This document shows, one piece after another, positions 3,293 to 12,252 of a DNA stretch of 64,000 nucleotides. Made by a program: the position numbers and the translations under genes. Source of the stretch: Sinorhizobium arboris LMG 14919 (GTDB lineage: Bacteria; Pseudomonadota; Alphaproteobacteria; Rhizobiales; Rhizobiaceae); the NCBI RefSeq assembly GCF_000427465.1, contig NZ_ATYB01000008.1, positions 1,178,001 through 1,242,000 of the forward strand, in the 5' to 3' direction. How positions within the stretch are numbered: the stretch's first letter is position 1; every line of letters starts with the position of its first letter. A model generated the notes under the pieces. It saw only the letters and a list, made by a program, of their open reading frames with translations, had not been told where the DNA came from and made no database searches.

Positions 3293-3317
3293 GGAACTTT
3301 CCCGCCGGAACGAGGTT
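3293..3317 (+). promoter_or_regulatory. Predicted EcfG/RpoE2-type general-stress promoter for the epimerase-VKOR fusion gene
   Basis: GGAAC (3293-3297), then 16 bases, then GGTT (3314-3317). This fits the general-stress sigma factor pattern of S. meliloti RpoE2 (GGAAC-N18-TT), counting the GG as the last two spacer bases. The last T lies only 9 bases before the ATG at 3327, so the transcript would be nearly leaderless. The same arrangement occurs ahead of katC and of the ZIP gene in this window. Confidence 0.55.
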
Positions 3318-3326
3318 TGCTTCGGC

Positions 3327-5870
3327 ATGCCGAAAGATGCAAACCAGCCGACCGTCCTCATCACCGGTTCGAGCGGCTTCCTGGGTCAGGCGATCGCGCA
3401 TCGTCTGAAGGACCGCTACCGGGTCATCGGACTCGACCTGTCCCCTCCGAAGGGACGCTCCGAGATCGAAGAGACGATCGAGCTCGACATCACCTCCGAC
3501 GAAAGCGTGGAGAAGGCGATCGAGGCGGCGCGCAACCGCAGCGGCGGGCACGTAGCGTCCGTGATTCATCTGGCCGCCTATTACGACACGACCGGCAAGG
3601 ACAACCCCAAATACGATGCCGTAAATGTCGAGGGAACGCGACGGCTGTTGAAGGCACTGCAGGACCTTCCGACCGACCAGTTGATATACGCGAGCACGCT
3701 CCTGGTGCAGGCACCGAGCCCCGCCAAGGGAACACGGATCGACGAGGATGCGCCATTGGACCCGGCCTGGGCCTATCCCAAGTCGAAGGCCGAGACCGAG
3801 GCGGTGATCGCGAAGGAGCGGGGGGCGATCAGGACCGCGACCCTTCGCCTCGCCGGCGTCTATGACGAGGACTGCCGCGCCGCCTTCATCGCGCAGCAGA
3901 TTGCCCGTATCTTCGAACGCCTGCCGACTGCCTATCTATTCAGCGGCGATCTCGAGGCGGGCCAGCCTTACCTGCACAAGGACGATCTGGTCGAGGCCTT
4001 CGTGCAGACCGTCGAACGCCGCAACGAACTGCCGGAGGAAAGCGTGTTCCTGATCGGCGAGGAGGAAACGCTCTCTTACGGCGAATTGCAGAAGCGCATC
4101 GGTCGGCTGGTCCACGGGGAGGACTGGCGCACGCTCGCTCTGCCCAAGAGCCTTGCCAAGCCGGGGGCATGGATGCAGACCGAGATTCTCGACCAGGACT
4201 CCGAGATCAAGCCGTGGATGATCGAGAACTCGGACGATCATTACGAGATCGACATCTCCCGTGCCCGCAACGAGCTCGGCTGGCAGCCGAGGCACAGCCT
4301 CGCTGTGACGCTGCCGGAAATGATCCGGCGGCTCAAGCAGGACCCGACCGACTGGTACGCGAAGAACAAGCTGGAGCCCTCCGTTGTCGCGGCCTCGGAT
4401 CCGGAGATCGAGCAGGCGGAGCAAAGGCTGGCTCAACCGCTGGAGCGCAGCGATGCCGAAGTCGAAGTTGCCATCGAGGAGCACCGGCTGCGCACGCTTT
4501 GGGCGCCGCTCGCAAACGTCGCGCTCGGCCTTTGGCTCGTTGCCTCGCCTGCGACGCTCGGCCTCTTCGACCCCGTCAGCGCGCCGCTGCCGCCGGCGCT
4601 TGGCCACGAGATCGCCGAACCCGCCATCCGCAATGCCCGTCTCGGGATCAGCGAGATCCTGTCCGGGTTGCTCGTTGCGGCCTTCGCCCTTCTGGGCATG
4701 TACCGGCGCTGGTCCCACGCGCAATGGATCACGGCCGCGCTCGGCGTCTGGATCATGCTGGCGCCGCTCATCTTCTGGACGACCAGTCCCGCGGCCTACG
4801 CGACGGACACGCTTGCCGGCATGCTGATCGTGGCTTTTGCGGTGATGATTGCGCCGACGCCGGGGATCCGGCCGCGGGCGCTCGCCGCCGACGACGACCG
4901 GCCGCTCGGCTGGAGCTATTCGCCGTCCTCCTTCACCCAGCGCATGCCGATCGTCGCGCTCGCCTTTGTCGGCCTCTTCGTCTCGCGCTATCTCGCCGCC
5001 TATCAGATGGGCCATGTCGACGGGCTGTGGGACCCATTCTTCGGGCCGGGTGAAGCCCCCGTTCGCAACGGCAGCGAGGCGGTCGTGACCTCCTGGGTGT
5101 CCAAAGGCTTTCCGATCGCCGATGCCGGCCTTGGCGCCTTCGCCTACGGGCTGGATATCCTGGCCGGCTCGATCGGGGACAGCCGCCGCTGGCGCACCAT
5201 GCCCTGGATGGTGCTCCTCTTCGGCCTCCTCATCGTGCCCCTCGGCGCCGTCAGCGTCTCCTTCATCATCATCCAGCCGCCGCTTATCGGCGCGCTCTGC
5301 ACGCTCTGCATCGTCCAGGCGGCCGTCACCGTCGTGCTCATCCCCTATTCGATCGACGAGGTGCTCGCCACCATCCAGTATCTCTGGCGCGTCACGAAGG
5401 CGGGCGAGCCCTTCTGGCGGACCTTCTGGATGGGTGGCCCGGCCATTTCGGAGGACCAGACGCCGGCGCCCGACCTCAACCGCCCGGCCTCCGAGCTGTT
5501 GAAGGAATTCATCGTCGGCGGCGTCAACTTCCCCTGGACGCTGGTCGCGAGCACATTGCTCGGCGCGTTCCTGATGACGACGCCCTTGGTTTTCGGCAGC
5601 GTCCCGCCGCTCTATCACAGCGACCACATCCTCGGTTGCGTCGTGATCCTGGTCGCCGTCACCGCCATGGCGGAGGTGGTGCGCCCGGTTCGCTTCCTCA
5701 ATGTGGCGCTCGGCGCCTGGGTAGCGGCCTCGCCGTTCCTGCTTGCCGGCGGCAGCACAGCGGCCACCGTCGCCAATCTCGCGATCGGTCTGGCATTGGT
5801 CGCACTCAGCCTGCCGCGCGGGACGCGCAGCGATGAGCATTATGGCGGGTGGGACCGGGCCATCGTCTGA
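3327..5870 (+). CDS. Three-part fusion: NAD-dependent epimerase + SPW membrane repeats + vitamin K epoxide reductase-like domain
   Basis: The product has 847 residues. Residues 1 to about 340 form an extended short-chain dehydrogenase/epimerase with TGSSGFLG (13-20) and Tyr150-x3-Lys154. A charged linker follows. The rest is membrane protein: helices with VALGLWLVASPA near 395-415 and ALGVWIMLAPLIF near 470, a VKOR-like block (about 550-700) with WDPFFGPG and the dithiol motif C658-T-L-C661, then another helix pair with VALGAWVAASPFLLAGG near 790-808. These short motifs resemble SPW repeats. The ATG at 3327 is chosen because the nucleotide-binding motif follows directly; a GTG at 3249 would add 26 unconserved residues. 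The redox substrate is unknown. The second, loop cysteine pair of classical VKORs is not visible. Confidence 0.8.
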   Translation: MPKDANQPTVLITGSSGFLGQAIAHRLKDRYRVIGLDLSPPKGRSEIEETIELDITSDESVEKAIEAARNRSGGHVASVIHLAAYYDTTGKDNPKYDAVNVEGTRRLLKALQDLPTDQLIYASTLLVQAPSPAKGTRIDEDAPLDPAWAYPKSKAETEAVIAKERGAIRTATLRLAGVYDEDCRAAFIAQQIARIFERLPTAYLFSGDLEAGQPYLHKDDLVEAFVQTVERRNELPEESVFLIGEEETLSYGELQKRIGRLVHGEDWRTLALPKSLAKPGAWMQTEILDQDSEIKPWMIENSDDHYEIDISRARNELGWQPRHSLAVTLPEMIRRLKQDPTDWYAKNKLEPSVVAASDPEIEQAEQRLAQPLERSDAEVEVAIEEHRLRTLWAPLANVALGLWLVASPATLGLFDPVSAPLPPALGHEIAEPAIRNARLGISEILSGLLVAAFALLGMYRRWSHAQWITAALGVWIMLAPLIFWTTSPAAYATDTLAGMLIVAFAVMIAPTPGIRPRALAADDDRPLGWSYSPSSFTQRMPIVALAFVGLFVSRYLAAYQMGHVDGLWDPFFGPGEAPVRNGSEAVVTSWVSKGFPIADAGLGAFAYGLDILAGSIGDSRRWRTMPWMVLLFGLLIVPLGAVSVSFIIIQPPLIGALCTLCIVQAAVTVVLIPYSIDEVLATIQYLWRVTKAGEPFWRTFWMGGPAISEDQTPAPDLNRPASELLKEFIVGGVNFPWTLVASTLLGAFLMTTPLVFGSVPPLYHSDHILGCVVILVAVTAMAEVVRPVRFLNVALGAWVAASPFLLAGGSTAATVANLAIGLALVALSLPRGTRSDEHYGGWDRAIV

Positions 5871-10080: not shown

Positions 10081-12192
<2,112 letters not shown>

Positions 12193-12227
12193 GGCAGCAC
12201 TCCTTGGTCGAGGGCGGATGGCCACGA

Positions 12228-12252
12228 AACCTTGGCGGGGGAGGTTGGTTCC
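12228..12252 (-). promoter_or_regulatory. EcfG/RpoE2-type promoter of katC
   Basis: On the minus strand GGAAC (12252-12248), 16 bases, then GGTT (12231-12228). This matches the RpoE2 consensus GGAAC-N18-TT and lies 36 bases before the katC ATG. katC is an established RpoE2 target in S. meliloti, which makes this the best supported of the three copies in the window. Confidence 0.7.

Follow-up and report, generated by a model that had tools for sequence, protein, structure and literature searches.

In a 64,000-nucleotide stretch of the Sinorhizobium arboris LMG 14919 genome (contig NZ_ATYB01000008.1; hereafter the window), an open reading frame at 3327-5870 (+) encodes a chain of 847 amino acids from an ATG start; an earlier in-frame GTG would give 873. 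The protein is a fusion of an extended short-chain dehydrogenase/reductase (SDR), SPW-type regions and a four-helix domain resembling vitamin K epoxide reductase (VKOR), in which the loop pair of VKOR cysteines is missing. Based on Pfam, Epimerase covers residues 10-244 (89.7 bits) and VKOR residues 541-676 (77.5 bits), both over the curated cut-off, and SPW is found in three stretches, the best of which, 737-829, scores 73.9 bits against a cut-off of 31.5. The SDR domain extends over approximately residues 10-345 (3354-4361), a putative first SPW-type four-helix region, delimited from the three SPW stretches, the sequence and the helices, over 390-507 (4494-4847), the VKOR-like four-helix domain over 536-690 (4932-5396) and the second SPW domain over 737-831 (5535-5819), all on the plus strand. 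Together with near full-length matches at 56 of 57 loci (see below), these hits bear out the fusion of an epimerase with SPW and VKOR-like membrane parts that an earlier note on this DNA had described. The chain is the sole VKOR-family match in the S. arboris genome, which also encodes one DsbB.

Extended SDRs carry TGxxGxxG, an acidic residue after strand 2, Ser/Thr and Tyr-x3-Lys. The chain has TGSSGFLG, D37, T124 and Y150-x3-K154, and we take its Thr-Tyr-Lys site to be the one expected of extended SDRs. Tyr150 and Lys154 are retained in 84 of 85 aligned loci members. By structure, the domain is closest to sugar-nucleotide epimerases and to further extended SDRs. Among the named sugar epimerases of NCBIfam, it falls under the cut-off of all 25 models listed (best E-value with TIGR03466, 56.5 bits versus 367.65).

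The chain has four cysteines in all, C183, C658, C661 and C771. C658-T-L-C661 (5298-5309, +) forms the active-site CxxC, placed by alignment and charge at the predicted periplasmic end of the eighth membrane helix, and stands alone, as had been claimed. In an alignment of 57 members (L001, L003, L039, L051, L058, L059 and L060 left out, four N-terminally cut loci from the genome sampling kept), C658 and C661 each occur in 56, C183 in 42 and C771 in 44, so neither of the last two is fully conserved. This speaks against loop cysteines placed elsewhere in the chain, the finding that the earlier note had named as fatal to its idea. The loop cysteines are absent from every relative checked: 0 of 240 sequences in two lists of the best 120 homologues, 0 of 66 further matches and 0 of 86 loci have them. 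The homologue lists used here hold the best 120 of 3144, of 849 and of 3089, and are not a census.

To locate the missing pair, we rely on an hhalign comparison with L067, a four-cysteine VKOR-like protein of 153 amino acids (probability 94%, E 1.4e-7). WCPIFG of L067 falls on WDPFFG (568-573; 5028-5045, +) and GCE on GSE (582-584), so that D569 occupies the first loop-cysteine position and Ser583 (codon 5073-5075, +) the second. The earlier placement of WDPFFG at the first loop cysteine thus holds, with the proviso that another four-cysteine protein, L062, in a weak alignment (13%), has its second loop cysteine at 583 too but its first at G573. All 87 aligned loci members have Asp or Glu at position 569 and Ser or Thr at position 583. 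Provided that L067 guides the placement correctly, a conserved acid and a conserved hydroxyl would have taken over from the loop pair, which goes beyond mere loss. L067 itself (L067:1483-1944, WCPIFG in its loop) is adjoined by an open reading frame that we presume to be DoxX-like.

The CxxC is also dispensable in some lineages, a result that the family alignment called for in the earlier note delivers alongside the uniform absence of the loop pair. It is lacking in 34 of 120 listed homologues of the VKOR part, mostly with S-x-x-A in its place, and a further one is truncated there. In a merged set (rows with at least 50 gaps dropped, plus one with a gap at the CxxC), which includes the S. arboris sequence, 37 of the 206 sequences assessed are without it. 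Based on parsimony on a midpoint-rooted FastTree tree, at least four changes are needed, and 30 of the 37 fall in one clade (support 0.88). All 37 keep P570, S589, D599, R621, W622, R623, Q650 and P651, and 35 keep W568. Three, L066, L095 and L107, are long-frame fusions (857, 833 and 832 amino acids; the first 60 residues of L066 fall outside its locus) that retain the Tyr-Lys pair of the SDR. A single match came from each of the genomes of L066 and L095; genome G920 has two fusions, L106 and L107, one with the CxxC and the other with S-x-x-A. Across 44 members less than 55% identical, conservation is highest in the VKOR-like region (57% mean identity; SDR 49%), and positions at least 98% conserved in the whole alignment make up 26% of the VKOR-like part, 12% of the SDR and 6% of SPW. 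That the fold is kept without the loop pair in every relative checked, and that the CxxC has been dropped in several lineages, suggests that it can serve without thiol chemistry, an old redox fold put to another use.

The chain has twelve membrane helices by our own assignment, four of which make up the VKOR fold. In all 87 sequences, Lys/Arg counts place the SDR side on the inner face of the membrane and the CxxC loop on the outer one, with 19.7 Lys+Arg per chain in the SDR-side loops (136 residues) versus 1.8 in the CxxC-side loops (71 residues). The SDR is thus predicted to be cytoplasmic and the CxxC to lie on the opposite, periplasmic face, with no evident path for NAD(P)H to the CxxC. 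By the same charge topology, RWRTMPW (621-627; 5187-5207, +), in which R621 and R623 are present in 87 of 87 aligned loci members, is assigned to a cytoplasmic loop and helix start.

The fusion is not a chance read-through, given the near full-length loci and the long frames in sampled genomes. A contig scan returned 57 distinct named loci, of which 56 match residues 10-846 or more, with a best segment 44-92% identical; they span Sinorhizobium, Mesorhizobium, Bradyrhizobium, Rhodopseudomonas, Geminicoccus, roseobacters, Stappia, Halomonas, Massilia and others. Counting the source genome, the VKOR-like part is present in 35 of the 394 genomes sampled from its own bacterial family (open frame of at least 830 amino acids in 35 of 42 rows) and in 6 of 398 sampled genomes of the phylum (7 of 7 rows). 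In a class sample the VKOR family was matched in 8 of 385 genomes, five with the SDR-SPW-VKOR fusion type and three not. Some sampled genomes hold two copies. The membrane part may also exist by itself, as a partial 314-residue protein from a Ktedonobacterales metagenome-assembled genome (P0216) begins at the SPW part and lacks an epimerase. Public records call two family members, P0181 and P0262, polymerase subunit epsilon or DNA polymerase III subunit epsilon, which appears to be a misnaming. Among the matches listed, the closest public DNA is Sinorhizobium meliloti pSymB (92.4% over 9 kb). The Rm1021 copy (NC_003078, approximately 16.5-19.0 kb, reverse strand) encodes a protein 93% identical; we guess its locus tag to lie within SMb20010-20013, of which SMb20013, a putative oxidoreductase in one published table line, may be the fusion gene. 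The block in common with pSymB starts at about 3290, three bases ahead of the promoter-like site described next, and the genes upstream differ between the two genomes.

The earlier note had placed a stress promoter in front of the gene, and this holds in part. A motif scan and enrichment in relatives point to a putative EcfG/RpoE2-type site at 3293-3318 (+), a relaxed match of the form GGAAC-N18-TT; the strict form, GGAAC-N15..18-CGTT, is not found ahead of the S. arboris gene; the window has two such sites (1.75 expected), each at another place. We take GGAAC-N-CGTT to be the RpoE2/EcfG-type motif. In 53 upstream regions of relatives (the seven loci named above, loci with fewer than 250 bases upstream and minus-strand loci dropped), strict GGAAC-N16,17-CGTT occurs in 18 and relaxed GGAAC-N18,19-TT in 37, versus 1.1% and 3.6% of random stretches from those loci, a rough contrast since these stretches consist largely of coding sequence and the loci include several close relatives. 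The CGTT form lies at -46 to -66 in 14 of 17 Sinorhizobium-group loci, which supply 14 of the 18 strict sites, and the strict form recurs in 9 of 28 further loci (two split genes, L099 and L118, dropped). The promoter examples in the part of PMC6180224 at hand fit the RpoE2/EcfG motif, and that part does not name the fusion gene. The S. arboris site lies just 34 bases ahead of the ATG, as in L004, L005 and L054, so the transcript may be nearly leaderless. RNA structure at the gene start is not notable (z -1.3). Another relaxed site, GGAACCAACCTCCCCCGCCAAGGTTT, lies at 12227-12252 (-), 60 bases upstream of a long catalase gene (start taken at 12192, -); the observation is weak, since a still looser pattern also matched ahead of two others of the eight genes tried, a ZIP and a LysR gene.

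The neighbourhood check proposed earlier yielded no operon partner common to all loci, but DNA-end-joining and heme-copper oxidase genes recur. Across 87 loci we found an ATP-dependent ligase/LigD at 11, Ku at 7, cytochrome oxidase subunit II at 9, a CtaG-like protein at 8 and subunit I at 8; Pfam confirms one representative of each recurrent family, plus the ligase and catalase of the window itself. Within 10 kb of 33 target places in 28 genomes (28 of 40 matched genomes used; short target-gene fragments and two second CtaG pieces dropped), CtaG occurs at 6 (0.15 expected), ligase at 6 (0.33) and Ku at 4 (0.19), but the families were picked post hoc from these loci and genera are shared, so Poisson values overstate the enrichment. 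A thioredoxin-like pattern, crude and with no positive control, matched one neighbouring open reading frame in the 87 loci, and none with a homologue at another locus.

Taking these observations together, we tentatively favour a stress-promoter-associated inner-membrane enzyme, in which a VKOR fold, which may do without thiols, holds something on which the cytoplasmic SDR acts. The VKOR-like bundle would keep its hydrophobic pocket and hold a lipid-type ligand, such as a quinone, a polyprenyl or a sugar-lipid; the fold is what prompts this idea. The SDR would oxidise, reduce or epimerise whichever part of this ligand, or of a partner substrate, extends to the cytoplasmic side, on which the invariant RWR loop is expected to sit. 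Where present, the CxxC would face the periplasm and have an accessory function, for instance as a switch or a stabilising disulfide, and would not be the core catalyst. The expected role would be upkeep of the envelope or respiratory chain in stressed or resting cells. More doubtful is the wider proposal that the VKOR fold has become a thiol-independent membrane active site, with its D/E-S/T pair and an optional CxxC, which in an undescribed stress pathway of many Proteobacteria acts together with the SDR on a substrate of lipid or quinone type.

Several results weigh against the enzyme that we favour. Of the 87 aligned loci members, 84 have both cysteines of the CxxC, as do 119 of 120 close homologues and all 66 further matches, so the CxxC is under selection in most members. 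Apart from the three long-frame fusions, the sequences without it are mostly short database pieces in which the fusion context is not visible. The fusion L094 shows the opposite of what we would expect, having Tyr150 replaced by Leu and Lys154 by Met while the CxxC is retained. The full-length predicted model is moderate (pTM 0.56), ligand binding is read from the fold alone, and helical bundles can reach comparable Z by arrangement. The overstated neighbour enrichment counts on the same side.

Because most members keep the CxxC, the main rival is a DsbB/VKOR-like thiol oxidase without a shuttle pair, in which a periplasmic dithiol partner reduces C658-C661 directly, electrons pass to quinone and the SDR is a separate tethered activity. 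The CxxC is at the usual VKOR place and face, it is followed at CxxC+4 by A665, an Ala frequent there in VKOR according to the part of PMC11208910 seen, and heme-copper oxidase neighbours would suit a quinone or respiratory link. We nevertheless consider it rather unlikely, given the loss of the CxxC through repeated changes on the tree while the remaining fold is kept, the lack of a recurrent thioredoxin-type neighbour by the crude pattern above and the genome's own DsbB. Less probable again is a non-catalytic sensor or scaffold, in which NAD(H) binding by the SDR serves as a signal and the role of the membrane part is to recruit or regulate a complex of the envelope or an oxidase: the stress-type promoter, the oxidase-assembly neighbours and the missing catalytic pair of L094 would fit, but Tyr150 and Lys154 are kept more strictly than binding alone would need. 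The earlier idea of a membrane redox device fed by NAD(P)H, in which the SDR hands reducing power to the CxxC, draws on the presence of both parts in one chain and on motifs nearly universal in the aligned loci, but we reject such a relay as very improbable, since the two sites lie on opposite faces by charge, SDRs are not known to have a thiol or flavin relay of their own, and either site persists without the other (L066, L095 and L107 keep that of the SDR, L094 the CxxC).

The fusion is a new variant combination of known parts, and the system is, as had been supposed, unassigned: the literature searched on VKOR with SPW repeat, epimerase, EcfG or general stress response gave no description of the fused protein, and titles among the papers listed on VKOR and loop cysteines pointed to none. 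None of five gene terms is present in the main text of PMC3616915, and the words fusion and fused are absent from the main text of PMC4555120. The link to general-stress-type promoters and to recurrent DNA-end-joining and heme-copper oxidase neighbours gives a concrete gene, with its close copy on S. meliloti pSymB, and the family is a warning against naming such proteins vitamin K epoxide reductases.

Compared with known systems, the SDR shares its fold with extended SDRs such as UDP-galactose 4-epimerase (8rdh), MoeE5 (6kvc) and an Agrobacterium SDR (4id9), but it is membrane-anchored and below the listed NCBIfam cut-offs. SPW repeat proteins (PF03779) share the SPW stretches, which in the fusion follow an SDR and flank the VKOR-like domain. 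The VKOR-like profile has no sequence match to solved VKOR chains up to E 10, so the link to VKOR is drawn from Pfam and the fold; by Foldseek alone the VKOR matches are weak (best E 0.053). L067 aligns through WCPIFG, GCE and CFYC with WDPFFG, GSE and CTLC of the fusion, and differs in standing alone with all four cysteines. In the parts of these papers at hand, the four VKOR cysteines are called absolutely conserved (PMC7462613), and DsbB and human VKORC1 have two completely conserved cysteine pairs in common (PMC4555120); a family that keeps the fold and loses cysteines contrasts with the former claim. Like human VKORC1 and Synechococcus VKOR (3kp9/4nv5), the fusion has the four-helix fold with the CxxC at the start of the last helix, but its loop pair is absent in all 240 listed homologues, its CxxC in 34 of 120 VKOR-part homologues, and its fold is joined to an SDR and SPW.
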